Part shown: one piece after another, positions 1 through 51,038 of the stretch
Layout: every line of letters begins with the position of its first letter
Numbering within the stretch: the stretch's first letter is position 1
From: Burkholderia plantarii
GTDB lineage: Bacteria; Pseudomonadota; Gammaproteobacteria; Burkholderiales; Burkholderiaceae
Assembly (NCBI RefSeq): GCF_001411805.1
Contig: NZ_CP007212.1
Location: 2,914,001-2,978,000, forward strand
Direction of reading: 5' to 3'
DNA length: 64,000 bases
Notes under the pieces: generated by a model
Databases searched by the model: none
What the model was told of the DNA's origin: nothing
What the model saw: only the letters and a program-made list of their open reading frames with translations
Position numbers and translations under genes: made by a program

Positions 1-481
1 CGAAGATCGCGATGGACGCGAGCGTGAGCAGCGGCGCGGCCTTCGCGTCGGCCGGGCTGCCGAACACGATCGAGCCGAGCGAGAGCAGCACGTAGGCGCC
101 GGTGGTGGTGTTGACGGTCTCCCAACCGAGCCGCGAGAGCAGCGAGACGATGGTCGGGCCGATGTTGCCGCGCATGCCGAACACGGCGCGCGAGAGCGTC
201 AGGCTCGGCGCATGGCCGCGCCGCCCCGCGATCGAGATCACGCCGACCAGCGCGAACGAGCCCGCCGCGCCGAGCACCGCCACCAGCGCCGCCTGCCAGA
301 TCGCGAGATGCTGGAACGCCACCAGCGTCGCGCCGAGCGGCAGCCCCAGGATGCTGATGTTCGCGGCGAACCAGACCCAGAACAGTTGCAGCGGATGGCC
401 GCGGCATTCGTCGTCGGGCACGGGTTCGATGCCGCGCGCCTCGATCTTGCCGGCGTGGGCGGGTGGGCGGGTCGATGCCAT
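1..481 (-). CDS. NCS1-family cytosine/purine permease, N-terminal part (runs off the window)
   Basis: About 160 N-terminal residues are visible; the gene continues past the left edge. The protein opens with a cytosolic segment (EARGIEPVPDDE), then PLQLFWVWFAANISILGLPL and further hydrophobic helices, the usual N-terminus of purine/cytosine permeases of the NCS1 (CodB-like) family. These inner-membrane carriers import nucleobases or related compounds. The ATG at 479-481 has AGGAG about 8 nt upstream. It is the third gene of a leftward operon, 32 nt after the ADP-ribosylglycohydrolase stop, so its substrate is probably linked to that enzyme and the GntR regulator. Substrate not determinable. 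Confidence 0.85.
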   Translation of the reverse strand, partial: MASTRPPAHAGKIEARGIEPVPDDECRGHPLQLFWVWFAANISILGLPLGATLVAFQHLAIWQAALVAVLGAAGSFALVGVISIAGRRGHAPSLTLSRAVFGMRGNIGPTIVSLLSRLGWETVNTTTGAYVLLSLGSIVFGSPADAKAAPLLTLASIAIF

Positions 482-36944: not shown

Positions 36945-37991
36945 TCAGCCCGCGCGCTGCGCTTCGCCCGGCGTGTGCGGAATTCCCTCGACCGGGCATT
37001 CCGGCGTGCCCGGCATCGGCCGCGTGAGCGCCTCGACGGCCGCGCGCGTCTTCTGCGGATCGGCCACCCAGTCGCGATAGAACGCGAACGGACACTCGGC
37101 CACGCCATGCACGCCGTCGCCCGAATGGATCGTGCCGGTGTAGCCGCGATGCAGCAGCTTGTAGAGGTGGTTCTGCGACTGCATGTTGCGCCGCGCGTCG
37201 CGGATCAGCGGCAGCGACAGCTCGGCGTACTGGATGCCCATCTCCTCCTCGCCGCATTCGCCGAGCGTGCGGCCGTCGAAGCCGATGATCGCGGAATGGC
37301 CGAAGTAGGAATAGACGCCGTCGAAGCCGGCCGCGTTGGCCACCGCCACGTAGGTATTGTTCATCCACGCCATCGCCTTCGACACCAGCACCTGCTGCTC
37401 CTTGGCCGGGTACATGTAGCCCTGGCAGCGCACGATCAGCTCGGCGCCGCGCATCGCGCAGTCGCGCCAGATCTCGGGGTAGTTGCCGTCGTCGCAGATG
37501 ATCAGGCTGATCTTCATGCCCTTCGGGCCGTCGGTCACGTAGGTGCGGTCGCCCGGATACCAGCCTTCCACCGGCGTCCACGGCATGATCTTGCGGTACT
37601 TCTGGACGATCTCGCCGTGGTTGTCGATCAGGATCAGCGTGTTGTACGGCGCCTTGGCCGGGTGCTGCTCGTGGCGCTCGCCGGTGATCGAGAACACGCC
37701 CCAGACGTTGGCCTGCCGGCAGGCCGCCGAGAACACCTCGGTCTCGGCGCCGGGAACGGTCGAGGCGGTCTCGAGCATCTCGGCTTCGTCGTACATGATG
37801 CCGTGCGTCGAATACTCGGGGAAGATCACGAGATCCATCCCGGGCAGCCCGCGTTTCATGCCGATCAGCATCTCGCCGATCGCGCGCGCGTTGTCGAGGA
37901 CCTCGGCGCGCGTGTGCAGACGCGGCATCCGGTAGTTGACCACCGCCACGCCCACGCTGTCGCGGCTGCTCGAAATATCTCCATGTCGCAT
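36945..37991 (-). CDS. amiE: Aliphatic amidase
   Basis: 348 residues, close to Pseudomonas AmiE (346). It hydrolyses short aliphatic amides such as acetamide and propionamide to the acid and ammonia in the cytosol. The nitrilase-fold catalytic triad falls at the canonical numbers: Glu59 (VIFPEYST), Lys134 (QKYRKIMP) and Cys166 ([12 protein letters not shown]). The start [20 protein letters not shown] matches the family exactly. It is the last gene of the leftward amide operon, 100 bp after fmdB. Confidence 0.98.
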
Positions 37992-38092: not shown

Positions 38093-38467
38093 TCAGTGGC
38101 TGATCATCCAGGGGCGCCCGGCAGGCCGCTTCAGGCCGCCGCCCGCCGCGCCGCCCGGGCCACCGCTCGGCCCGCTGCCCCCGCTCGCGCCGGCCAGCGA
38201 CACGCGCCGGCCCGAACAGCAGCCGCAGCCGGCGCCATGCCGCGCCGCGCCTGGCTGGCCCGACTGGCGCGGCGCATGCGCGGCACGCTCGTTGGTGGCA
38301 TGCGCGATGCGCCGCTCGCCCGACATCAGCGCGAGCGACGGCGCGCTCACCAACCGCGCGGCGGCCGTGCCGCAGGCGGGGCACAGCGCGGGCCGGTCGC
38401 GCTCGGCGATCGGGCGCAGGGCCGCGAACGGCCCGCAGGTGTCGCAATGGAAGTCGTAGATCGGCAT
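38093..38467 (-). CDS. fmdB: FmdB-family zinc-ribbon protein
   Basis: 124 residues. The first half is a CxxC...CxxC zinc ribbon: [20 protein letters not shown] and [20 protein letters not shown], as in FmdB regulatory proteins. The second half is Ala/Gly/Ser-rich with a further CGCC pair and looks unstructured. FmdB homologues are encoded next to formamidase genes and were proposed as regulators; the molecular role is not settled. Here it follows fmdA by 47 bp and precedes amiE. Confidence 0.88.
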
Positions 38468-38514: not shown

Positions 38515-39753
38515 TCAGGCTTTCGCGAGGTCGTGGGAGATCGGCAGGTCGACCTCGCCCGTCACGTGGCGGATCGGCCCCTCGGCGTTCGGACGGATGT
38601 CGAAGTCGAAGATGCCGGTGGGCAGCCACAGCGTGGCGCAGGCGTTCGGGATGTCGACCACGCCGCTGATGTGCCCCTGCACCGGCGCGCAGCCGAGCAG
38701 CGAGTAGGCCTGCGCGCCCGAGTAGCCGAACTTCTTCAGATACTCGATCGCGTTCAGGCAGGCCTGCCGGTAGGCCACGGTGACGTCGAGGTAATGCTGG
38801 CCGCCCGACTCGTCCACCGAGATGCCCTCGAAGATCAGGTAGTCGTTGTAGGCCGGCGTGATCGGGCTCGGCTGAAACACCGGGTTGCGGATCCCGTACT
38901 TCGCCATGCCGCCCTTGATCAGGTTCACGCGCATGTGGACCCAGCCCGCCATCTCGATCGCGCCGCAGAACGTGATCTCGCCGTCGCCCTGGCTGAAGTG
39001 CAGGTCGCCCACCGACAGCCCCGCGCCGTCCACGTAGACCGGGAAGAACACCTTCGAGCCGCGCGACAGATCCTTGATGTCGCAATTGCCGCCGTGCTCG
39101 CGCGGCGGCACGGTGCGCGCGCCCTCGGCCGCGGCCTTTGCCTTCGCGTCGCCGGCGAGGCTGCCCAGGTGCGCGGTGGCCGCGAACGGCGGGTTCGCGA
39201 GCGGCGGCACGCGTGCCGGGTCGGTCGCGATCAACCCGGTCTCGCGCGCGTTCCAGGTCTCGAGCAGCTTCGGATCGGGCAGGCAGCCGATCAGCCCGGG
39301 ATGGATCAGCCCGGCGAAGTTCACGCCCGGGATGTGGCGCGAACTCGTGTAGAGGCCGTGGAAATCCCAGATCGATTTCTGCGCGGACGGGAAATGGTCG
39401 GTCAGGAAGCCGCCGCCGTTGGTCTTCGAGAAGAAGCCGTTGAAGCCCCACTGGCTGTCGGCCTTCGCGCCGATGTCGAGCAGGTCCACCACCAGCAGGT
39501 CGCCGGGCTCGGCGCCCTTCACGCCCACCGGGCCGGACAGGAAATGGACGATCGACAGGTCGATGTCGCGCACGTCGTCGGCGCTGTCGTCGTTCTTGAT
39601 GAAGCCGCCGGTCCAGTCGTAGGTCTCGAGCACGAAGTCGTCGCCGGGGTTCACCCAGCACGCCATCGGAATGTCGGGGTGCCAGCGGTTGTGGACTTGC
39701 GCGTTCTCGTAGGCGGACTGGTTCAGGTCGACCTGGATCAGGGTGTCGGGCAT
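38515..39753 (-). CDS. fmdA: Formamidase
   Basis: 412 residues, similar to Methylophilus FmdA (407). It hydrolyses formamide (and more slowly other short amides) to formate and ammonia. The acetamidase/formamidase fold is recognised by [60 protein letters not shown], and [20 protein letters not shown]. The ATG at 39751-39753 has GAGGAG 8 nt upstream. It lies between the transporter genes and fmdB, so uptake and hydrolysis are coupled in one operon. Confidence 0.97.
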
Positions 39754-39871
39754 CTCGCACGCTCCTCGGTTGTCGGGTGCAGTCAAGCGGTTGGAAATCG
39801 GTTGGAAAGCGGGTGCAAAGCCGCCGGAGTCCGGCGCGCGGCATCAAGCGCTCCGCGCCGGCCGCGCGGCC

Positions 39872-40561
39872 TCAGACGGACAGGTACTCGCGAATCCGCC
39901 CCGTGTCGCCGGCCTCGCGCGTACTCTGGTGGACGAAGCGGCCGCCCTCGATCACGAACAGGCGGTCGGCCACCTCCAGCGCGAAGCTCAGCACCTGCTC
40001 GGACACCACGATCGCGATGTCGCGCGTGGCGCGGATCTGGTTCAGCGCCTTCGCGATGTCCTTGATCACCGAGGGCTGGATGCCCTCGGTGGGTTCGTCG
40101 AGCAGCAGCACCTTCGGATCGGTGGCGAGCGCGCGCGCGATCGCGAGCTGCTGCTGCTGGCCGCCGGACAGGTTGCCGCCGCGCCGCCGGCGCATGTCGA
40201 ACAGCACCGGGAACAGCGCGTAGAGATCGTCGGGCACGTGCTGCGATTTCGCGTTCTCGAGGCCGGTGCGGATGTTCTCCTCCACCGTCAGCGAGGCGAA
40301 GATCTGCCGGCCCTGTGGCACGTAGCCGATGCCCTTGGCGACGCGCCGGTAGCTCTCGTCCCTCGAGACGTCGGCGCCGCCGACCTTCACGGTGCCGCGG
40401 CTGGCCGGCAGCATGCCGATCAGCGCCTTGAACAGCGTGGTCTTGCCCATGCCGTTGCGCCCCATCACCGCGACGCTTTCACGGTTCGCGACCGAGAAGC
40501 CGATGCCGTGCAGCACCTCGCTCTGGCCATAACTGACGACGAGATCGTCGACTTCGAGCAT
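39872..40561 (-). CDS. urtE: Urea/short-chain amide ABC transporter ATPase, UrtE-like
   Basis: 229 residues. A LivF-type ATPase: Walker A MGRNGMGKTTLFKAL, Q-loop VPQGRQIFASLTVEENI, signature LSGGQQQQLAIARALA, Walker B VLLLDEPTEGIQ and VVSEQVL in place of the switch-His region, as usual for UrtE. GGAGGA lies before the ATG. It is one of the two ATPases of the importer, acting with UrtD and the permeases UrtBC at the inner membrane. The name follows the urea system; the neighbours fmdA and amiE argue for short amides as substrates (FmdDEF-type). Confidence 0.93.
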   Translation of the reverse strand: MLEVDDLVVSYGQSEVLHGIGFSVANRESVAVMGRNGMGKTTLFKALIGMLPASRGTVKVGGADVSRDESYRRVAKGIGYVPQGRQIFASLTVEENIRTGLENAKSQHVPDDLYALFPVLFDMRRRRGGNLSGGQQQQLAIARALATDPKVLLLDEPTEGIQPSVIKDIAKALNQIRATRDIAIVVSEQVLSFALEVADRLFVIEGGRFVHQSTREAGDTGRIREYLSV

Positions 40562-40599: not shown

Positions 40600-41343
40600 T
40601 CAATGGCCGAGATAGACGTCGATCACGCGCGGGTCGGCCTGCACCTTCGCCATCGGCCCCTCGGCGAGAATCCTTCCCTGGTGCATCACCGTGACCTTGT
40701 GCGCGATGCGCTCGACGAACGCCATGTCGTGCTCGATCACGATCATCGAGCGCTGCCGGCAGATGCGCGCCAGCAGCTCGGCGGTGATCTCGCGCTCCTT
40801 CACGCTCATGCCGGCGATCGGCTCGTCGAGCATCAGCAGCTCCGGGTCCTGCATCAGCAGCATGCCGATCTCGAGCCACTGCTTCTGGCCGTGCGAGAGC
40901 AGCCCCGCCTCGAGATCGAGCGCGGCGCCGAGCCCGATCTCGTCGGCCACCGCCCGCACGCGGTCGATCACCTCGCTGTCGAGCCGGAACGCCAGCGCGC
41001 CGAACACGCCGCGCCCGCGCGGGAACGACACTTCCAGGTTCTGCGCGACCGAGAGGTTCTCGTAGATCGACGGCGTCTGGAACTTGCGGCCGATGCCCTT
41101 GCGCACGCGCCGGAATTCGGCGAGGCGCGTGATCTCCTCGTTGCGGAACTTGATGCTGCCGGCGGTTTCGCGGGTGCGGCCGCAGATCAGGTCGAGCAGC
41201 GTGGTCTTGCCGGCGCCGTTCGGGCCGATCACCACGCGCAGCTCGCCGCGCTCGAGGTAGAGGTTCAGCGCGTCGATCGCCTTGAAGCCGTCGAACGAGA
41301 CGGTCAGGTCCTCGACCGCGAGCAGGAAGTCGGTATTGCTCAT
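40600..41343 (-). CDS. urtD: Urea/short-chain amide ABC transporter ATPase, UrtD-like
   Basis: 247 residues. LivG-type ATPase: Walker A IGPNGAGKTTLLDLICG, FQTPSIYENLSVAQNLEVSF, signature LSHGQKQWLEIGMLL (the altered SHGQ form characteristic of UrtD), Walker B LLMLDEPIAGMS and the switch His in VIEHDMAFVE. I start at the ATG at 41341-41343, which has GGAGG 7 nt upstream; the preceding ATG at 41347-41349 overlaps the urtC stop (ATGA) but lies too close to the ribosome site. Confidence 0.93.
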   Translation of the reverse strand: MSNTDFLLAVEDLTVSFDGFKAIDALNLYLERGELRVVIGPNGAGKTTLLDLICGRTRETAGSIKFRNEEITRLAEFRRVRKGIGRKFQTPSIYENLSVAQNLEVSFPRGRGVFGALAFRLDSEVIDRVRAVADEIGLGAALDLEAGLLSHGQKQWLEIGMLLMQDPELLMLDEPIAGMSVKEREITAELLARICRQRSMIVIEHDMAFVERIAHKVTVMHQGRILAEGPMAKVQADPRVIDVYLGH

Positions 41344-41345
41344 CG

Positions 41346-42563
41346 TCATGCCTCCCGTTCGATCGGAGCGGTCGCGTCGGGCGCGGCCGCGCCTTTGTCC
41401 GCCGCGTTGTCCGCGCCCGCCAGCCAGCGACGCAGACGCCCGCGCAAGTGGGCCTCATAAAGCCCCGCCAGACCGTTCGGGAACGCCATCACCACGCCGA
41501 TGAACATCGCCGCCATCAGGAACAGCCAGAGGTTCGGCAGGCTCTCCGAGAACCAGGTCTTGCCGAGGTTGACGAGGATCGTGCCGAGCACCGCGCCCGC
41601 CACCGACATGCGCCCGCCCACCGCCGCGTAGATCACCATCTCGATCGACGGCACGATGCCGACGAACGACGGCGACATGAAGCCCACCTGCAGCGTGAAC
41701 ATCGCGCCGCCCACCGCCGCGAGCAGCGCCGCGACGCAGAACGCGAACACCTTGAACATCGCGACGTCGTAGCCCGAGAAGCGCACCCGGTCCTCCTTGT
41801 CGCGCATCGCCAGCAGCAGCGTGCCGAGCTTGCCGCGCTGGATCCAGCGGCAGGCCAGCATGGCCGCGATCAAGAGCGCCGCGTTGACGAAATACAGCAC
41901 GTATTTCGCCTGGTTCGACTGGATGCTCCAGCCGAGCAGCGTGCGCAGGTCGGTGATGCCGTTCACGCCGCCCGTGAAGCCCTGCTGGCCGATGATCAGC
42001 ACCGACAGGATCAGCGCCACCGCCTGCGTGATGATCGCGAAGTAGACACCGCCCACGCGCCGCTTGAACATCGCGAAGCCGATCACGAACGCGAGCGCGG
42101 TGGGCACCACCAGCACCGCCAGGATCGCGAACGGCAGCGAGTGGAACGGCTTCCACCAGAACGGCAGCGCCGTGAGCTGGTTCCAGTCCATGAAGTCGGG
42201 GATGCCGGGCGTGGTCTGGGTCTTCGTCGAGACCGGATCGGACGCCTCCAGCTTCAGGAACATCGCCATCGCGTAGCCGCCCAGGCCGAAGAACACGCCC
42301 TGCCCGAGGCTCAGCACGCCACCGTAGCCCCACGCGATCACGAGCCCGATCGCGACGAACGCATAGGTCAGGTACTTGCCCATCATGCCGAGCCGGAACG
42401 GATCGAGCGCGAGCGGAAACACCACGACGATCACGAGCGCGAGCAGCGCGATGCCGGCATAGCCGGAATGCTCGGCGCGCCGAGCCAGCGCGCGCCAGCC
42501 GCCCGGCGAACGCACGCCGGCGGGCGCGGCGCCCCCGCCCGCGGCGGATTGGATGGGTTCCAT
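41346..42563 (-). CDS. urtC: Urea/short-chain amide ABC transporter permease, UrtC-like
   Basis: 405 residues, LivM-type inner-membrane permease with about ten helices. YLTYAFVAIGLVIAWGYGGV, LSLGQGVFFGLGGYAMAMFL and TQTTPGIPDFMDWNQLTALP are UrtC-specific segments; the EAA-like loop RDKEDRVRFSGYDVAMFKVF couples to the ATPases. The C-terminal Ala/Asp-rich tail is short and disordered. Its stop overlaps the first possible urtD start. Confidence 0.94.
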   Translation of the reverse strand: MEPIQSAAGGGAAPAGVRSPGGWRALARRAEHSGYAGIALLALVIVVVFPLALDPFRLGMMGKYLTYAFVAIGLVIAWGYGGVLSLGQGVFFGLGGYAMAMFLKLEASDPVSTKTQTTPGIPDFMDWNQLTALPFWWKPFHSLPFAILAVLVVPTALAFVIGFAMFKRRVGGVYFAIITQAVALILSVLIIGQQGFTGGVNGITDLRTLLGWSIQSNQAKYVLYFVNAALLIAAMLACRWIQRGKLGTLLLAMRDKEDRVRFSGYDVAMFKVFAFCVAALLAAVGGAMFTLQVGFMSPSFVGIVPSIEMVIYAAVGGRMSVAGAVLGTILVNLGKTWFSESLPNLWLFLMAAMFIGVVMAFPNGLAGLYEAHLRGRLRRWLAGADNAADKGAAAPDATAPIEREA

Positions 42564-42609: not shown

Positions 42610-43527
42610 TCAGGCGCGGCGCACCTTCGAGGCGAACAGCCCCTGCGGGCGCAGCATCAGGATGATCACGACGGTCAGCAGCGTCAGCACGCGCGCCGTC
42701 GAGCCCGACAGGAAGAACTCGCTGACCGACTGCATCTGCGCGATGCCGAACGCCGAGGCCACGGTGCCGAGCAGGCTCGCCGCGCCGCCGAACGTGACCA
42801 CCAGGAACGAGTCGACGATGTAGAGCGAGCCGCTGGTCGGCCCGGTCGAGCCGATCGCCGTGAACGCGGCACCGGCCACGCCGGCCACGCCGCAGCCGAT
42901 CGCGAACGTCATGCGGTCGGTGAGCCGCGTGTTGATGCCGGCGGCGTTCGCCATCGGCCGGTTCGCGACCGTGGCCCGCACCCGCAGCCCCCAGCGCGAG
43001 CGATACAGCGCGAGCAGCAGGCCGCCCGTCATCACCAGCGCGAGCCCCATCACGAACATGCCGCTGACGGGGATGTCGAGCCCCTGCGACGGCTCCCACG
43101 AGCCCATCAGCCAGTCCGGCAGCGCCGGGCTGACCTCCTTCGGCCCGAAGGTCGAGCGGAACACCTGCTGCATGCCGAGGCTCAGGCCCCAGGTGGCGAG
43201 CAGCGTGTCGAGCGGACGCCGGTACAGATGGCGGATCAGCGCCCATTCGGCGAGCCAGCCCGCCGCGAACGCGAGGCCGAACGCGGCCACGATCGCGACG
43301 AAGAAATAGACCGGCGTGAGCGCGTGCCAGACGTTCTGCGCGAACCACGAGAACAGGTAGACGGTATAGGCGCCGATCGTCATGAACTCGCCGTGCGCCA
43401 TGTTGATCACGCCCATCTGGCCGAAGATCACGGCCAGGCCGAGGCCCATCAGCAGCAGGACGCTGAACAGGCTCAGGCCGGCGAAGCCCTGCATCAGCGT
43501 GATATTGAAAATGTCGGTGGCGGACAT
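42610..43527 (-). CDS. urtB: Urea/short-chain amide ABC transporter permease, UrtB-like
   Basis: 305 residues, LivH-type permease. MQGFAGLSLFSVLLLMGLGL, GQMGVINMAHGEFMTIGAYT and RATVANRPMANAAGINTRLT mark the UrtB branch. GAGGAGGC lies ahead of the ATG. With UrtC it forms the membrane channel for the amide or urea delivered by the binding protein. A 305-residue form, without the long N-terminal extension of some cyanobacterial UrtB proteins. Confidence 0.94.
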   Translation of the reverse strand: MSATDIFNITLMQGFAGLSLFSVLLLMGLGLAVIFGQMGVINMAHGEFMTIGAYTVYLFSWFAQNVWHALTPVYFFVAIVAAFGLAFAAGWLAEWALIRHLYRRPLDTLLATWGLSLGMQQVFRSTFGPKEVSPALPDWLMGSWEPSQGLDIPVSGMFVMGLALVMTGGLLLALYRSRWGLRVRATVANRPMANAAGINTRLTDRMTFAIGCGVAGVAGAAFTAIGSTGPTSGSLYIVDSFLVVTFGGAASLLGTVASAFGIAQMQSVSEFFLSGSTARVLTLLTVVIILMLRPQGLFASKVRRA

Positions 43528-43609: not shown

Positions 43610-44881
43610 TTACATGTAGCCCTTCGGGAACGGGTTCGGCTGGATCGGCTCGTTCGACTGCGCGACCACCTTGAACTGCCCGTCCGGCTGCCCCTCGCCG
43701 ATCAGCGAGCGGCTCCAGAGGTGATGGTTCGCGTCCACCTTCGCGTAGCCCTGCGGCGCGTTCTTCAGCTCGATGCCGGCCGAGGCGGCCACCACCTTGT
43801 CCACGTCGAAGCTGCCGGCGCGCTCGCAGGCGGCCTTCCAGATCCACGGGCCGAGATAGGCGGCCTGCGTGACGTCGCCGATCACGGCCTTCTGGCCGTA
43901 GCGCGCCTTGAACGCCTTCACGAAGCTCTGGTTGGTGTCGTTGGCGAGCGACTCGAAATACTTCATCGACGAATAGAAGCCGGCGAAATTCTCGCCGCCG
44001 ATGCCGAGCACCTCGTCCTCGGTGACCGACAGCGTCAGCAGGAACTGCTTGGCCGGCGTGATCCCGGCCGCCTTCAGCTGCTTGTAGAACGCCACGTTCG
44101 AGCCGCCCACCACGGTCGCGAAGATGCAGTCCGGGCGCGCCAGCTTGATCTTGTTCATCAGCGAGTAGAAATCGGTGGTACCGAGCGGGTAGTACTCCTC
44201 GCCCACCACCTTCGCGTGCAGGTGTTGCTCGATGTGGCGGCGCGCGATCTTGTTCGAGGTGCGCGGCCAGATGTAGTCGGAGCCGACCAGGAAGAAGGTC
44301 TTCGCCTTCTTCGTGTTCGAGGCCCAGTCGAGCGCCCAGAGGATCTGCTGAGTCGCCTCCTGGCCCGTGTAGAACACGTTCTTCGACTGCTCCAGCCCTT
44401 CGTAGAAGGTCGGGTAGTAGAGCAGCCCGTTGTCCTTCTCGAAGATCGGCAGCACCGCCTTGCGCGAGGCCGAGGTCCAGCAGCCGAACACGGCCGCCAC
44501 GTGGTCGTTCTCGAGCAGCTTGCGCGACTTCTCGGCGAAGGTCGGCCAGTCGGAGGCGCCGTCCTCCTGGATGATCTGGATCTTGCGGCCGAGCACGCCG
44601 CCCATCGCGTTGATCTGTTCGATCGCGAGGCGCTCGGCCTGGATCGAGCCCGTCTCCGAGATCGCCATGGTGCCGGTGGCCGAGTGCAACTGGCCAACCG
44701 TCACCGTGGTGTCGGTCACCGCCAGCCTGGTGGTATTGACCTTCGCCGTGGGCGGGGTCTGCGCGAACGACGCGCGCGGCAGGCCCAGCGCCATCAGCGG
44801 CGCGGCGGCGAGGCCGCCGATCAGGCGCCGGCGCAGCGACGACGGCGCGCCGTCGTCATCGAATCGATCGTCTACGGGCAT
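43610..44881 (-). CDS. urtA: Urea/short-chain amide ABC transporter substrate-binding protein, UrtA-like
   Basis: 423 residues. An SLRRRLIGGLAAAPLMALGL segment followed by RASFAQT suggests a twin-arginine-type export signal. The mature part is a family 5 (Liv/AmiC-like) binding protein: VTVGQLHSATGTMAISETGS, AAVFGCWTSASRKAVLPIFE and NGLLYYPTFYEGLEQSKNVF, the core of UrtA and FmdD. AAGGAG lies before the ATG at 44879-44881. First gene of the leftward operon; upstream lies an inverted repeat and the divergent sensor-kinase gene. Confidence 0.95.
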   Translation of the reverse strand: MPVDDRFDDDGAPSSLRRRLIGGLAAAPLMALGLPRASFAQTPPTAKVNTTRLAVTDTTVTVGQLHSATGTMAISETGSIQAERLAIEQINAMGGVLGRKIQIIQEDGASDWPTFAEKSRKLLENDHVAAVFGCWTSASRKAVLPIFEKDNGLLYYPTFYEGLEQSKNVFYTGQEATQQILWALDWASNTKKAKTFFLVGSDYIWPRTSNKIARRHIEQHLHAKVVGEEYYPLGTTDFYSLMNKIKLARPDCIFATVVGGSNVAFYKQLKAAGITPAKQFLLTLSVTEDEVLGIGGENFAGFYSSMKYFESLANDTNQSFVKAFKARYGQKAVIGDVTQAAYLGPWIWKAACERAGSFDVDKVVAASAGIELKNAPQGYAKVDANHHLWSRSLIGEGQPDGQFKVVAQSNEPIQPNPFPKGYM

Positions 44882-44963: not shown

Positions 44964-44981
44964 ATACGTCGATTGACGTAT
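44964..44981. promoter_or_regulatory. Inverted repeat in the amide-operon/sensor divergent promoter
   Basis: ATACGTC-GATT-GACGTAT has perfect 7-bp arms. It lies 83 bp upstream of the urtA start and 78 bp upstream of the hybrid-sensor start, so one bound response regulator could control both. Spacing suits a NarL/FixJ-type dimer. Confidence 0.6.
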
Positions 44982-45058: not shown

Positions 45059-48000
45059 ATGGCACCGATGCCCCCGTCCGCCGCGTCAGACGCCGCTTCC
45101 CGAGCCGCTTCGGAAGCCCCTTCCACGCCGCACGCGCCGCACGCGCCGGATGCGCCGCCCAGCACGCAGCGCATCGTCAAGGTGCGCCGCGACTACAACG
45201 CCTGGGTCGGCGACGAGACGCTCGAGGATTACGCGCTGCGCTACACGCCGAGTTCGTTTCGCCGCTGGTCCGAGTTCCGCGTCGCCAACACCGCGATCGG
45301 CGCCGTCTCGTTCCTGGTGCTGGAGGCGATCGGCGGCAGCCTCGTGGTCGACTACGGCTTCACCAACGCGGTCTGCGCGATCGCCGCCGTCTCGCTGCTG
45401 ATCTGGCTGACGAGCCTGCCGATCAGCTATTACGCGGCGCGCCACGGCGTCGACATGGATCTGCTCACGCGCGGCGCCGGCTTCGGCTACATCGGCTCGA
45501 CCGTCACCTCGCTGCTCTACGCGAGCTTCACGTTCATCTTCTTCGCGCTCGAGGCGGCCATCATGTCGCTCGCGCTGCAACTGGTGTTTCCGATCTCGAT
45601 CGGCCTCGCCTACGTGATCAGTTCGCTGGTGGTGATCCCGATCGTGATGTTCGGCATCACGCTGATCAACCGGCTGCAGAGCTGGACCCAGCCGCTGTGG
45701 CTGGTGCTGTTCGTGCTGCCCTACGGCGCCGTGCTCTGGCATCAGCCGTCGCTGCTGCGCGAATGGACCACCTTCTCGGGCTTCGCGCGCGACGGCCACG
45801 CATTCAACGCGATCGCGTTCGGGCAGGCCGCCACCGTGGTGTTCGCGCTGATCGTGCAGGTCGGCGAGCAGGTGGACTACCTGCGTTTCCTGCCGCCGCT
45901 CACCGCGCGCAACCGGCGGCGCTGGTGGATCGCGCTGCTCGCGGCCGGGCCCGGCTGGATCGTGCCCGGCGCGCTGAAGATGCTGGGCGGCGCGTTCCTC
46001 GCGTTCGTCGCGATCCAGCACGAGATCGATCCGGCGCATGCCGCACAGCCCACCCAGATGTACCTGGTCGCCTATCACCTGCTGTTCGATCCGCTCGGGC
46101 TCGCCGCCTGGGCGCTGCCGGTGATGACGCTGTTCGTGCTGGTCTCGCAACTGAAGATCAACGTGACCAACGCCTACGCCGGCTCGCTCGCGTGGTCGAA
46201 CTTCTTCGCGCGGCTCACGCACAGCCACCCGGGCCGCGTGGTCTGGCTCGTGTTCAACGTGCTGATCGCGCTGCTGCTGGTGGAGATGGGCGTGTTCGAG
46301 GCGATCGGCAAGGTGCTGTCGATGTACGCGAACGTCGCGATCGCCTGGGTCGGCGCGCTGTTCGCCGATCTCGTCGTCAACAAGCCGCTCGGCTACAGCC
46401 CGCGCGACATCGAGTTCAAGCGCGCGCATCTGTACGACATCAATCCGGTGGGCGTCGGCGCGATGGGGATCGCCACCGTGGTGGCGATGCTCGCGCACGG
46501 CGGCGCGTTCGGCGAGCTGGCGCGCGCGCTGTCGCCGTTCATCGCGCTCGGCGTCGCGTTCGTCTGCGCGCCGGCCATCGCGATCGCCACGCGCGGGCGC
46601 TACTACCTCGCGCGCCAGGCCGAGCCCGGCGTGGCCGGTGCGCTGCGCCGCTGCGCGATCTGCGAGAACGAATTCGAGCACGACGACACCGCCTATTGCC
46701 CCGCCTACGGCGGCACCATCTGCTCGCTCTGCTGCTCGCTCGATTCGCGCTGCAACGACCGCTGCAAGCCGCACGCGCGGATCGCCGCGCAGCTCGACCG
46801 CGCGCTGCACCGGCTGTTCCCGCGCGCGCGGCTCGGCGCGACCGGCGTGCGGCTGATCCACTATGCGAGCCTCGTGCTCGCCACCATGCTGCTGCTCGCC
46901 ACCGTGCTCTACCTGATCTGGTCGCAGAGCGCCGATTCGCTCGCCGCGCCCGGCTCGCCCGCCTGGCGCGAGGTGGCCAACAGCTACGTGAAGGTGTTCG
47001 TCGCGCTCTCGCTGATCGGCGGCATCGCCGCCTGGTGGCTCGTGCTCGAACGCGAGAACCGGCGCGTCACGCAGGAGGAATCGCAGCGCCAGACCGAGCT
47101 GCTGATGCACGAGATCGAGGCGCACCGCAAGACCGATGCCGCGCTCAAGCACGCGCGCGCCGCGGCCGAGGCCGCCAACAGTGCCAAGAGCCGCTACGTG
47201 ACGGGGCTCAGCCACGAGCTGCGCACGCCGCTCAACAGCATCCTCGGCTATGCGCAACTGCTGCTGCTCGCCCAGGACGAGATCGCGCCCGCGCGCCTCA
47301 ACGCGATCCGCACCATCCACCGCAGCGGCGAGCACCTGCTCGCGCTCGTCGACGGGCTGCTCGACGTGGCGCGCATCGAGGCCGGCAAGCTGCAGTTGAA
47401 CGTCACGCGCATCGCGCTGCCCGAGTTCCTCGCGCAGATGACTTCGATGCTGCGCCCGCAGGCCGTGGAGAAGACGCTCGAGTTCGTCGTGCAGCCCTCG
47501 GGGCGGCTGCCCGCCACCGTCAAGTCGGACCAGAAATGCCTGAGCCAGATCCTCACCAACCTGATCGGCAACGCGATCCGCTTCACGCGCGCCGGCGGCG
47601 TGACGCTGCGCGTCGGCCACGCGCTCGACACGCTGACCTTCGAGGTCGTCGATACCGGCCCCGGCATCCCGGCCGACGCGATGGAGCGGCTGTTCCTGCC
47701 GTTCGAGCGCGGCGAGGCCGCGAGCCGGCACGACCATGGCGCCGGGCTCGGGCTCACCATCTGCCGGCTGCTCACGCACGCGCTTGGCGGCAGCCTCGAG
47801 GTGGAGAGCGTGGTCGGACACGGCACGCGCTTCATCGTCAAGGTCTACGCGCCCGCCGTGCATGCCGCCGCGCCCGCGCGCACCGGGCCGGCCGAGATCC
47901 GCGGCTATCGCGGGCCGCGACGCACGCTGCTGATCGTCGACGACCTGCCCGACCAGCGCGCCATCGTCGTGCAGATGCTCGCGCCGCTCGGCTTCGAGAT

Positions 48001-48751
48001 CGCCGAGGCCGACAACGGGCCGGACGCGCTGCGCTGGCTCGGCACGCGCGCCGCCGACGCGATCCTGATGGACATCTCGATGCCGGAGATGGACGGCTAC
48101 GAGACCAGCCGGCTGATCCGCGAACGCCGCATCTCGGACGCGCCGATCATGCTGCTGTCGGCGAACGCGTTCGCCGACGACCGCGAACGCGCGATCGCGA
48201 TCGGCTGCGACGACTACCTCGTGAAGCCGGTGCAGGTGCCGGTGCTGCTCGACAAGCTGGCGGCGCTGCTGCGCGTGACGTGGGTGACGGCGAGCGAGGC
48301 GTCGATGGAGACGGCGGGGCGGGTTGCGGACGCCGGCGATGCGGGCGATGCCGTCGTGCCGCTCGCCCCGCTCCCGACGGCCGCCGTGATGCCGGCGGCC
48401 TTGCCCGACGAGGCCGCGTCGAACGCATCGGACCTGCCCCGGCACGCGACGACCGCGCTCGCGGTGGCACCATCCCGCCTCGCCGCCGCCCGCCATGACG
48501 CAGCCGGGCCGCCGCCCGCGGCGCAAGGCGGATCGGCGCCAGCCGCCCTGCCGCGTTCGCTGCACGCGCAGCTGAAGACGCTGCTCGACGTCGGCTACGT
48601 GCAGGGCCTCATCGAGGCGCTCGACGCGGCCGCGCCGCATCACCCCGGGTTCGCCGCGCCGCTCGCGTCGCTGCGCGAACACGCCGAACTTTTCCAGCTG
48701 AAGGACTTCGAGCATGAGCTTGACCGCATTGCGCCCGGCGCCGGCGACTGA
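45059..48751 (+). CDS. NCS1-permease/hybrid histidine kinase (transporter-like sensor)
   Basis: 1230 residues. After a disordered N-terminus, residues about 40-520 form a full NCS1-type permease (DYNAWVGDETLEDYALRYTP; some ten to twelve helices). A Cys-rich segment (Cys532 to Cys569, CAICENEF...CSLCCSLDSRCNDRC) may bind metal. Two more helices (about 600-622, 643-663) and a coiled coil lead to the kinase: phospho-acceptor His719 (LSHELRTPLNSIL), N-box near 833, DTGPGIP near 865, GLGLTIC near 895. A receiver follows (DDLPDQR; Asp1005 in ILMDISMPEMDG; Lys1056), then an Ala/Pro linker and a tail that may be Hpt-like. Divergent from the amide operon; probably senses its substrate. Confidence 0.93.
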   Translation: MAPMPPSAASDAASRAASEAPSTPHAPHAPDAPPSTQRIVKVRRDYNAWVGDETLEDYALRYTPSSFRRWSEFRVANTAIGAVSFLVLEAIGGSLVVDYGFTNAVCAIAAVSLLIWLTSLPISYYAARHGVDMDLLTRGAGFGYIGSTVTSLLYASFTFIFFALEAAIMSLALQLVFPISIGLAYVISSLVVIPIVMFGITLINRLQSWTQPLWLVLFVLPYGAVLWHQPSLLREWTTFSGFARDGHAFNAIAFGQAATVVFALIVQVGEQVDYLRFLPPLTARNRRRWWIALLAAGPGWIVPGALKMLGGAFLAFVAIQHEIDPAHAAQPTQMYLVAYHLLFDPLGLAAWALPVMTLFVLVSQLKINVTNAYAGSLAWSNFFARLTHSHPGRVVWLVFNVLIALLLVEMGVFEAIGKVLSMYANVAIAWVGALFADLVVNKPLGYSPRDIEFKRAHLYDINPVGVGAMGIATVVAMLAHGGAFGELARALSPFIALGVAFVCAPAIAIATRGRYYLARQAEPGVAGALRRCAICENEFEHDDTAYCPAYGGTICSLCCSLDSRCNDRCKPHARIAAQLDRALHRLFPRARLGATGVRLIHYASLVLATMLLLATVLYLIWSQSADSLAAPGSPAWREVANSYVKVFVALSLIGGIAAWWLVLERENRRVTQEESQRQTELLMHEIEAHRKTDAALKHARAAAEAANSAKSRYVTGLSHELRTPLNSILGYAQLLLLAQDEIAPARLNAIRTIHRSGEHLLALVDGLLDVARIEAGKLQLNVTRIALPEFLAQMTSMLRPQAVEKTLEFVVQPSGRLPATVKSDQKCLSQILTNLIGNAIRFTRAGGVTLRVGHALDTLTFEVVDTGPGIPADAMERLFLPFERGEAASRHDHGAGLGLTICRLLTHALGGSLEVESVVGHGTRFIVKVYAPAVHAAAPARTGPAEIRGYRGPRRTLLIVDDLPDQRAIVVQMLAPLGFEIAEADNGPDALRWLGTRAADAILMDISMPEMDGYETSRLIRERRISDAPIMLLSANAFADDRERAIAIGCDDYLVKPVQVPVLLDKLAALLRVTWVTASEASMETAGRVADAGDAGDAVVPLAPLPTAAVMPAALPDEAASNASDLPRHATTALAVAPSRLAAARHDAAGPPPAAQGGSAPAALPRSLHAQLKTLLDVGYVQGLIEALDAAAPHHPGFAAPLASLREHAELFQLKDFEHELDRIAPGAGD

Positions 48752-49724
48752 GGCCGCGCTGCCCGGCGCGCTCGGCAATCGTCCCGTGGTGCTGATCGTC
48801 GACGATACGCCCGACAACCTCGCGCTGCTGTCCGACACGCTGCGCGCGGACGGCTACGCCGTGCTCGTCGCGCTGAGCGGCGACGACGCGCTGAAGTGCC
48901 TCGCGCGCGTGACGCCCGACGTCGTGCTGCTCGACGCGATGATGCCCGGGCTCGACGGCTTCGAGACCTGCCGCCGTCTGAAGCTCGAACCGCGCCACGA
49001 GCATCTGCCGGTGATCTTCATGACCGCGCTGGCCGAGAGCGAACATGTCGTGCAGGGCTTCCGGGTGGGCGGCATCGACTACGTGACCAAGCCGGTGCGG
49101 CCCGAGGAAGTGTGCGCGCGGATCGCCTCGCACGTGCAGCGCTCGCGCGCCCAGCGCTACGCCGATGCCGTGCTCGGGCTCGAGGCGCGCGCGGCCGTGA
49201 TCGTCGACGGCGGCGGCGCGATCCGCTGGCAGAGCCCGCAGGCGGCGGTGCGGCTGGCGGGCTATGGCGACGATGCGGATCGCTCCATCAGCCTGGCAAG
49301 CGATGAACCGGCGGCGACCCCGCTCGCGCGCGCCGCGCTGCCCGCCCGGCTGCGGCAGTGGTTCGTGCAATGGCGGGAGCAAGGCTGCCCCGAGGACGCC
49401 GTCCACGAGACGATCGACGGCGGCGTGCGGCGCTCGGCCCGCGTGACGGGCGCGCCGACGCAGGGCGAATGGGTGGTGGTGCTGGAGGCCTCCGACGACG
49501 GCGCGCTGGTGGTGACGCTGCTCGACCGCTTCGGGTTGACCACGCGCGAGGCCGAGGTGCTGCTGTGGGTCTCGCGCGGCAAGACCAATCGCGATATCGG
49601 CGACATCCTCGACATGGCGCCGCGCACCGTCAACAAGCATCTCGAACACCTGTTCCGCAAGCTGCACGTGGAGACGCGCTCGGCGGCCGCGGCGCTGGCG
49701 GTGAAGGCCGTGGGACGCGGATAG
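48714..49724 (+). CDS. LuxR/FixJ-type response regulator, partner of the hybrid sensor
   Basis: 336 residues. Receiver: VVLIVDDTPDNLALL, phospho-acceptor Asp74 in VVLLDAMMPGLDG, Thr/Lys at FMTALAE and YVTKPVR (Lys126). A central region (about 140-265) has a PAS-like character (AAVIVDGGGAIRWQSPQAAV). The C-terminal LuxR HTH is LTTREAEVLLWVSRGKTNRD, then MAPRTVNKHLEHLFRKLHVE. The gene overlaps the 3' end of the sensor gene by 38 nt, so the pair is cotranslated and cognate. Its probable targets are the amide operon and the sensor gene through the inverted repeat at 44964-44981. Confidence 0.93.
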   Translation: MSLTALRPAPATEAALPGALGNRPVVLIVDDTPDNLALLSDTLRADGYAVLVALSGDDALKCLARVTPDVVLLDAMMPGLDGFETCRRLKLEPRHEHLPVIFMTALAESEHVVQGFRVGGIDYVTKPVRPEEVCARIASHVQRSRAQRYADAVLGLEARAAVIVDGGGAIRWQSPQAAVRLAGYGDDADRSISLASDEPAATPLARAALPARLRQWFVQWREQGCPEDAVHETIDGGVRRSARVTGAPTQGEWVVVLEASDDGALVVTLLDRFGLTTREAEVLLWVSRGKTNRDIGDILDMAPRTVNKHLEHLFRKLHVETRSAAAALAVKAVGRG

Positions 49725-49880
49725 ACGCCGCGCGCGACGGCGCGCTCGTGCTGCATCGGCATCCATCGCCGCACCGATGCCGAATCGAGAAATCAGCCGA
49801 CAACGCGCCACGCACGGCGTCATGCAATGCAACATGATTTCCCGCGCCGGGCTTCCGTTTCCCGCGCTCCGATTCGTGTC

Positions 49881-49911
49881 TTGGCAGTGGCCGGCCGCGA
49901 GACGCTTTATG
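49881..49911 (+). promoter_or_regulatory. Weak promoter candidate before the F-box-like gene
   Basis: TTGGCA (49881-49886) and TTTATG (49906-49911) are 19 bp apart, a slightly long spacer, 84 bp upstream of the next start. No hrp_II box (TTCG-N16-TTCG) is present. Confidence 0.3.
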
Positions 49912-49994
49912 TTCGGCACGCAGATGCTGCGGGGACGGGTCCGACACGGAGCACCGATCCCGCAGCCTTCGCCCCTCTCGTCACAGCCGAGCCC

Positions 49995-51038
49995 ATGAAA
50001 CCGACTCTCCCGCGCACCGGCCGCATTGACCCGACCGGCCTCGACCGGAGCGACGCCACGCACCACCCGACCCAGGCCGAGCCGCCAGCCGCCGCGCCCG
50101 CGACCGCCGCCAGCAACGCGCTGCCGAGCGACCTGCCGCCCCGTGCCTCGCACGGCGCGGCACGCTCGACGGCAGCCGGGCAAACGCCCGAGCTCGACGG
50201 CGCCGAAGCGCATGCGATAGCGCACTTCGCGAGCCTCGCGATCACGGACGACGTCCAGCCTGCCCCGCGCGCGCTTGACGTGGCCGATACATCGAACGAC
50301 ATGTTACACAACACACGGCAAGCCGGCCCGTCGCTCGACAGCATGCCGGTCGAGCTGATCCACGACATGGATCTCGACGCGCAGCAGATGCAGTTCGTCA
50401 GCCGGCGCTACGCGCACCTCTTCCACGGCGAGGCCGTGGCCCGGTCGCTCGCGGAGGCGCCCGCGAAGGCGCGCAGCTTCGCCGCGATCGACGCGGCGGT
50501 CGCGCAGCTGGCGCGGCTCGTCCCGGCGCGCCAGCAAGGCGGCGCGCTGGCCCAGCTTGCCGCGCGGCTCGAGATGGTGCCGATGCGCGAGCGGCAGGCC
50601 AGCTTCGACACGCTGCTGGCCGCGGCGCGGCAATGCCCGGCGCATTTCGAATTGCTGACCGAGCTGTTCCGCCAGACCAACGACTGGGCCCCGGTTCAGC
50701 GCGACGCCTGCCAGGCCCGGCTCGCCGACATGGAGGGCGCCGAAGCCGCGCGCGTCGCCGCGTCCGCGAACGACGTGCTCGACGTCGACGACATCCCCGC
50801 CCTGCTCCAGCGCACCGACGGCATGCCCGAAGCGCGGCGCAGCGACGTGCTCGGCGCGCTAGCGAAACAACTGTTCGGGCTGCACTACCTCCGCACTCAC
50901 GATTTCGCGCGGATCTGCGAACGCTTCCACGCCGAACCGTGGCCGCCCGCCGCCGCGGCCGGCCTGCTGCGCCGGATCGGCTGGATCACGGACGAAGCGC
51001 GCCGTGATCTGACCGCGCGCAGCGAGGCGCAAGGTTGA
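49995..51038 (+). CDS. Unrecognised helical protein with an F-box-like stretch; candidate secreted protein
   Basis: 347 residues. The first 110 are Pro/Ala/Thr/Ser-rich and look disordered, with no Sec signal. Residues 117-143 (MPVELIHDMDLDAQQMQFVS, then RRYAHLF) resemble an F-box with the middle shortened: a P-x-E-L start and a V-S-x-R-x-x-x-L end. The rest is helical with loosely repeated units (LAQLAARLEMVPMRERQ; MPEARRSDVLGALAKQLFGL). The layout recalls type III effectors of plant-associated beta-proteobacteria, but no secretion box or family match is visible. The ATG at 49995 is one option; the frame is open from 49827. Confidence 0.6.
   Translation: MKPTLPRTGRIDPTGLDRSDATHHPTQAEPPAAAPATAASNALPSDLPPRASHGAARSTAAGQTPELDGAEAHAIAHFASLAITDDVQPAPRALDVADTSNDMLHNTRQAGPSLDSMPVELIHDMDLDAQQMQFVSRRYAHLFHGEAVARSLAEAPAKARSFAAIDAAVAQLARLVPARQQGGALAQLAARLEMVPMRERQASFDTLLAAARQCPAHFELLTELFRQTNDWAPVQRDACQARLADMEGAEAARVAASANDVLDVDDIPALLQRTDGMPEARRSDVLGALAKQLFGLHYLRTHDFARICERFHAEPWPPAAAAGLLRRIGWITDEARRDLTARSEAQG

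Follow-up and report, generated by a model that had tools for sequence, protein, structure and literature searches.

A predicted transceptor-type two-component system for urea and short-chain amides in Burkholderia plantarii

What does a sensor kinase with a permease-like N-terminal domain perceive, and which genes does it control? This question is raised by a gene within a 64,000-nucleotide stretch of the Burkholderia plantarii genome (8.08 Mb in 3 contigs; assembly GCF_001411805.1, contig NZ_CP007212.1, positions 2,914,001 to 2,978,000), which we call the window and number from its first letter. A single open reading frame (ORF), with its ATG at 45059 and its stop ending at 48751, encodes a hybrid sensor kinase of 1230 residues; it overlaps a LuxR-type response-regulator gene and faces an operon for the import and hydrolysis of amides and urea. 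To our knowledge, little has been described of how most Proteobacteria sense urea and small amides, and the largest domain of this sensor goes unrecognised by Pfam. Our analysis indicates that sensor and regulator probably form a two-component system of the transceptor type, which would respond to urea and short-chain amides and act on urtA through one conserved candidate operator.

A carrier-like domain fused to a hybrid kinase

A first-pass annotation, made from the letters and translated frames alone, had described one 1230-residue frame holding kinase and receiver motifs and overlapping a LuxR-type gene, and the domain searches bear this out: HisKA, HATPase_c and Response_reg in the sensor, as well as the receiver (REC) and GerE domains of its partner, are all above the Pfam cut-offs. 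His719 and Asp1005 lie where that annotation had placed them, within HELRTP and LMDISMP, respectively; the histidine is conserved in 56/56 sequences and the aspartate is present in 54, the other two having no receiver domain. Carrier, kinase and receiver share one frame in 53 of 55 fetched relatives, and carrier and kinase do so in the remaining two. Since the same frame recurs in this way, the joining of carrier and kinase is not a chance fusion. The sensors of loci L083 and L089 (879-885 aa) are without a receiver, have no overlapping regulator gene and lie about 4.9 kb from fmdA; because two relatives do without it, the receiver with Asp1005 probably serves as a modulator or a phosphate store. 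Elsewhere the regulator is the next gene on the same strand in 53/55 fetched loci, overlapping in 45 (a count that relies on start codons picked by script) and otherwise 7-358 nt away, and it is present in 75 of 80 named loci. The nearest proteins to the sensor among the matches listed (the best 120 of 8000 scored) are from Burkholderia, at 82-84% identity, and the genera of the named relatives include Bradyrhizobium, Roseibium, Pseudomonas and Burkholderia.

The N-terminal part had been called a complete NCS1 permease, a claim that is supported for its fold and not for its family membership in Pfam. Residues 1-614 give a single, unrelated Pfam match (EACC1, E 0.2, far under the cut-off), PF02133 matches none of 48 sequences (the sensor and 47 relatives) at E values up to 1, none of the NCBIfam matches listed (25 of 157) falls within the permease domain, and the domain does not qualify as an SLC5 carrier domain. 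Profile comparison with six PF02133 proteins of the same genome shows homology (hhalign probability 96, E 3.9e-9), and the fold predicted by AlphaFold 2 (AF2) is closest to solved NCS1 structures, as the annotation would have it, at 15-18% identity to the NCS1 carriers CodB and Mhp1. Residues F142, G143 and G146 and D273, R276 and F277, invariant among the sensors, align with the motifs FG-x2-G and D-x2-R-[YF], which we take to be hallmarks of the NCS1 family; the six NCS1 proteins of the genome have invariant F, G, G and D, R, Y at these places. Because PF02133 does not recognise it, we file the domain as an NCS1-like branch and not as a Pfam-recognised NCS1 member. The predicted structure shows an intact carrier fold, and its conservation is high; this domain seems to be the most conserved part of the sensor, with many polar invariant residues.

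A stand-alone homologue of the domain, in locus L039, does pass PF02133 (36.4 bits, cut-off 23.5). This permease (L039:9949-14370), 31% identical to the sensor domain, adjoins a C-N hydrolase and a UrtA-like binding protein; it is possibly an amide importer and could reveal the substrate of this carrier branch. The window itself holds part of an ordinary NCS1 permease gene at its left edge (1-424, minus strand; PF02133, 173.6 bits for the whole match).

Directly behind the carrier follows a cysteine-rich segment, which had also been noticed at first pass and which we call the Cys8 module; a transmembrane (TM) hairpin, a long helix and HisKA come after it. Its eight cysteines (532, 535, 547, 555, 558, 559, 565 and 569) occur in all 56 sequences, and the module is likely to bind zinc. 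The segment shows short strands in the predicted model; a fold search on a second model spanned mainly helices. The Cys8 module occupies the position that STAC has in CbrA (PMC13022988; papers cited here and below were drawn on in excerpt), and the comparison with CbrA made at first pass stands for the principle of a carrier fused to a kinase, whereas the linker seems to differ.

Recurrent neighbours of the sensor

Of the 398 genomes that make up the sample of the phylum, 53 (about one in eight) match the sensor domain, a figure that includes the B. plantarii genome itself, one partial match and one fragment match; G224 (contig-limited) and G236 (a short fragment) are counted in it and were not fetched. 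The 55 loci that were fetched, mostly 20 kb each, confirm that these fusions keep the company that had been expected for them: 54 lie near urtA, fmdA or urease genes, and in the remaining one the contig ends inside urtA. By type, 35 have an amide-type urtA together with fmdA (18 of them also amiE), 10 a urea-type urtA, seven ureC with no urtA in view and two fmdA only, in addition to the truncated one; L071, whose contig ends inside urtA, was labelled amide by hand. The urease alpha subunit is confirmed by Pfam in six urea-type loci. Among the named loci, 73 of 80 have urea or amide genes nearby.

Across the genomes, fmdA is present in 40 of 398, and 39 of these 40 own a sensor, while urtA is present in 52 of the 53 sensor genomes and in 120 genomes without a sensor; Fisher values for the co-occurrence of fmdA and urtA with the sensor are 5e-41 and 2e-20, with kinship ignored. 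Within sensor genomes, 39 of 42 fmdA genes lie at most 15 kb from a sensor. The recurrent neighbours are thus urea and short-amide genes, which suggests a narrower list of ligands than the first-pass annotation had given; its architecture, regulator pairing and amide or urea link are strongly supported, and its purine-derived option is not, no purine, allantoin or hydantoin gene being found among about 30 further neighbours, the subset that was annotated.

A tree of 133 sensor domains and the stand-alone homologue, built by a quick method whose program noted long branches, needs nine changes of the urea context, of which starred branches force at least seven. Although the context switches several times between amide and urea, the invariant residues of the domain persist, and parallel substitutions relative to the amide type are nearly absent among five urea-linked clades. 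This near-lack fits one ligand class, and weakly suggests that urea- and amide-linked sensors share it.

A candidate operator before urtA

The region between urtA and the sensor gene contains the palindrome TACGTC-GATT-GACGTA, about 80 nt from both start codons and the only exact TACGTC-N4-GACGTA in the genome. The motif was derived from 73 of 75 sensor-urtA intergenic regions; TACGTCA occurs in 51 of the 73 (0.6 expected) and TACGTC-N4-GACGTA in 29. The pattern was widened to TACGY-N6-RCGTA after inspection of loci without the first form, many of the loci with the same-spacing variant being alphaproteobacterial. Near the sensor start the wide pattern is found in 63/76 amide-type and 1/51 urea-type loci; with spacers of 4, 5, 7 or 8 no locus is found, and four other palindromes give 0 or 1 locus. 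The loci, 2.6 Mb in all, hold a further 38 sites. Sixteen precede fmdA and another 16 a urea-type urtA; the last six lie before an amide-type urtA (1), before a urtC match (1), inside urtA (2) or are unassigned (2). Counted by gene, the site stands upstream of 63/75 amide-type urtA, 17/29 urea-type urtA in fetched loci (one more being too near a contig end) and 16/69 fmdA. In Pseudomonas-type loci (for example L040, L061, L139 and L143), the sensor gene is preceded by two copies at a distance of 22 nt and fmdA by one more.

Three tests were made after the pattern had been fixed, while the sites before urea-type urtA and fmdA inside the loci were noticed first and counted later. Upstream of urtA in genomes without a sensor, the operator is found in 0/40 promoters, hand-picked as 40 of 120 such genomes. 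Of 20 hand-picked urtA genes that belong to 19 sensor genomes and lie outside the fetched locus, five carry it; all five are from genomes with a urea-type sensor, against 0/15 from genomes with amide-type sensors only, and their distance from the sensor ranges between about 10 kb in G142 and 245 kb in G379. Finally, six named genomes have an isolated sensor, with no urea or amide gene nearby (six of seven such genomes, L168 being left out): five of them have urtA, and all five carry the operator 176-205 nt before the urtA match, although there are just 3-7 such sites per genome. Two other spacings and two other palindromes gave 0 in the promoter tests. Since the isolated-sensor genomes carry the operator before urtA, the site, the sensor and urtA go together even where the genes are apart. 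The conserved candidate operator links the predicted system with urtA and, for some lineages, also with fmdA.

The features of the window are collected in Table 1. The facing operon reads as the first-pass annotation had proposed, with UrtA-E, FmdA and the aliphatic amidase passing their NCBIfam cut-offs and the FmdB piece exactly at its own; PF03069 has no match in the genome other than this fmdA. After the regulator gene, a 403-aa frame (49827-51038, plus strand) has no Pfam family at E 0.001.

Table 1. Sensor, regulator, candidate operator and facing operon in the window
Feature	Position	Strand	Basis
Hybrid sensor kinase with permease-like N-terminal domain, 1230 aa	45059..48751	+	ORF, Pfam, relatives with same fused frame
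NCS1-type (LeuT-fold) permease domain	45164..46588 (residues ~36-510)	+	Profile comparison, predicted fold
Cys8 module	46640..46774 (residues ~528-572)	+	C-x2-C-x11-13-C-x7-C-x2-CC-x5-C-x3-C in 56/56 sequences
Second membrane part: TM hairpin into long helix before HisKA	46838..47050	+	Hydropathy, AF2 helices
HisKA, phospho-acceptor His719	47183..47386 (residues 709-776)	+	Pfam
HATPase_c	47528..47845 (residues 824-929)	+	Pfam
Response_reg receiver, Asp1005	47930..48259 (residues 958-1067)	+	Pfam
REC-LuxR response regulator, overlapping the kinase gene end	48714..49724	+	Pfam Response_reg 26-137, GerE 275-329
Candidate operator TACGTC-GATT-GACGTA, between urtA and sensor gene	44965..44980		Conserved palindrome
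urtA-type binding protein	43610..44881	-	TIGR03407, 524.9 bits (cut-off 492.75)
urtB-type permease	42610..43527	-	TIGR03409, 384.5 bits (cut-off 250.3)
urtC-type permease	41346..42563	-	TIGR03408, 438.6 bits (cut-off 296.2)
urtD-type ATPase	40600..41349	-	TIGR03411, 361.6 bits (cut-off 304.1)
urtE-type ATPase	39872..40561	-	TIGR03410, 329 bits (cut-off 285.8)
fmdA, formamidase	38515..39786	-	NF045496, 767 bits (cut-off 500)
fmdB-type zinc-ribbon protein	38093..38467	-	TIGR02605, scanned piece exactly at cut-off 31.3
amiE, aliphatic amidase	36945..37991	-	NF009802, 688.3 bits (cut-off 427)

Proposed mechanism, alternatives and significance

From the architecture, the NCS1 fold, the genomic linkage and the operator distribution, all established computationally, we infer the following course of events. 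The NCS1-fold domain would bind its ligand as a carrier does, and the resulting conformational change would be relayed through the cytoplasmic Cys8 module and the TM hairpin to the kinase; His719 would be phosphorylated, and the phosphate would reach the aspartate of the LuxR-type regulator. The regulator would then bind TACGY-N6-RCGTA and activate urtA (in the window, the operon urtABCDE-fmdA-fmdB-amiE) and possibly its own genes, the activating sign being assumed. Because of the genomic linkage and the operator distribution, the regulator very likely controls urea and amide uptake; urea or short amides are the most likely signal of the permease domain.

Several observations weigh against this proposal. 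In seven of the 80 named loci, all inside one urea-type group of the tree, the sensor has neither urea nor amide genes near it, and a single isolated-sensor genome of the six is without urtA. As an exact match, the operator is absent from 12/75 amide-type urtA, 12/29 urea-type urtA and 53/69 fmdA, and it is found upstream of 0/36 amiE and 0/33 ureC. Genome-wide, the backward control of the wide pattern is commoner than the pattern itself, both in B. plantarii (29 vs 7) and in the isolated-sensor genomes (13-35 vs 3-7 per genome), so that there is no enrichment; and no sigma-70-like promoter was found in the urtA-sensor intergenic region. The roles of the sensor in ligand binding, transport and phosphorylation are predicted ones, and we know of no NCS1 carrier that moves urea or formamide. 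Operators, moreover, mark targets and not the ligand, and the signal could therefore be nitrogen status or another compound.

This last point leads to an unlikely alternative, in which urea and amide uptake is indeed controlled and the domain senses ammonium, another nitrogen status or a nucleobase-type compound. Neighbourhood and operator reveal the output only, and cytosine and hydantoins are the substrates of CodB and Mhp1, the classical relatives of NCS1 type; however, the association spans amide-only and urease-only loci, as a shared carboxamide ligand would have it, the nearest stand-alone permease is also found among amide-type genes, and the annotated neighbours hold no nucleobase or hydantoin gene. 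That the Cys8 module is the main sensor, for a metal or for redox state, with the permease domain as a membrane anchor or modulator, seems quite improbable. Urease requires nickel, ureJ/hupE-type genes adjoin several sensor copies and the eight cysteines are invariant, yet it is the permease domain that seems best conserved and rich in polar invariant residues, and a urease gene is not seen in the majority of amide-type loci, L159 being one where it is. Least probable, in our view, is that linkage and operator stem from inheritance of the operon structure, or that the site is that of another regulator, with this regulator acting elsewhere: gene order is partly inherited within clades and binding of the operator by the regulator is predicted only, whereas the context changes several times on the tree and the operator marks urtA genes outside the locus in 5/5 cases with a urea-type sensor and 5/5 with an isolated sensor, against 0/15 with amide-type sensors only and 0/40 without a sensor.

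A further variant, compatible with a receptor for urea and amides, is that the domain is a working importer of these compounds and that its transport cycle, and not its occupancy, is what the kinase reads. We regard this as possible though doubtful. The intact, highly conserved carrier fold speaks for it, as does CbrA, for which both transport and kinase activities are reported (PMC7096432); the operon, however, already has an ATP-binding cassette (ABC) importer of its own, and Ks-Amt5 of Kuenenia, an Amt domain fused to a histidine kinase, binds ammonium without moving it efficiently and so offers a precedent for a carrier turned receptor (PMC5764959). CbrA provides a LeuT-fold precedent for the same step (PMC13022988).

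The proposed urea and amide sensor has several known counterparts. CbrA, CrbS and RpuS likewise join a LeuT-fold carrier to a kinase, and CrbS also has a LuxR-type partner regulator, which needs an inverted repeat (PMC5715377); these kinases differ in their SLC5 carrier, seemingly also in the four-helix STAC domain that they have in the place of Cys8, and in their ligands, which are histidine, acetate and pyruvate (PMC13022988). Ks-Amt5 similarly uses an uptake carrier for a nitrogen compound as the sensory module of a kinase, but it has the Amt fold, is reported from one anammox bacterium, and no Cys8 module is noted for it in the excerpt (PMC5764959). The 5TMR sensor kinases also take a transporter fold as kinase input, although theirs is the S-component fold, and 'NCS1' occurs nowhere in the text of that paper (PMC11109136). 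On the side of the output, the fmdCABDEF genes of M. methylotrophus combine formamidase with short-amide and urea uptake and are induced by formamide and urea, a precedent for the inducers; the text of this review contains neither 'histidine kinase' nor 'two-component' (PMC10781810). A hybrid kinase and a LuxR gene have been listed beside urtABCDE, with no carrier domain noted in the excerpt (PMC13296017), a urt-like cluster beside PF03069 and amiE has been proposed to move amides (PMC3098086), and formamide has been suggested for such a cluster in P. veronii (PMC13209695). Unlike the sensor, CodB and Mhp1 are stand-alone carriers. The AmiC-AmiR system controls an amidase operon, as is proposed here, but AmiC is a soluble binding protein and not a membrane kinase.

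Transporter-kinase fusions are thus already known; for the NCS1 type, no described kinase fusion was found among the matches listed for open-licence PubMed Central. Automatic names of the Joint Genome Institute (JGI) already call relatives 'purine-cytosine permease-like' kinases and so name both halves.

More broadly, and tentatively, these sensors may constitute a further class of bacterial transceptor kinases, of NCS1 type and widespread in Proteobacteria, in which a dedicated receptor for urea and short amides has lost transport, signals through a metal-bound Cys8 module, keeps nearly the same ligand pocket in urease- and amidase-linked versions and relies on one operator across the phylum. 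The candidate operator offers a direct experimental handle on the system. If the proposal is true, the NCS1 fold would join the carriers known as kinase inputs, an amide or urea biosensor would be on offer, and there would be another LeuT-fold case in which to ask how the cycle of a carrier drives a kinase.

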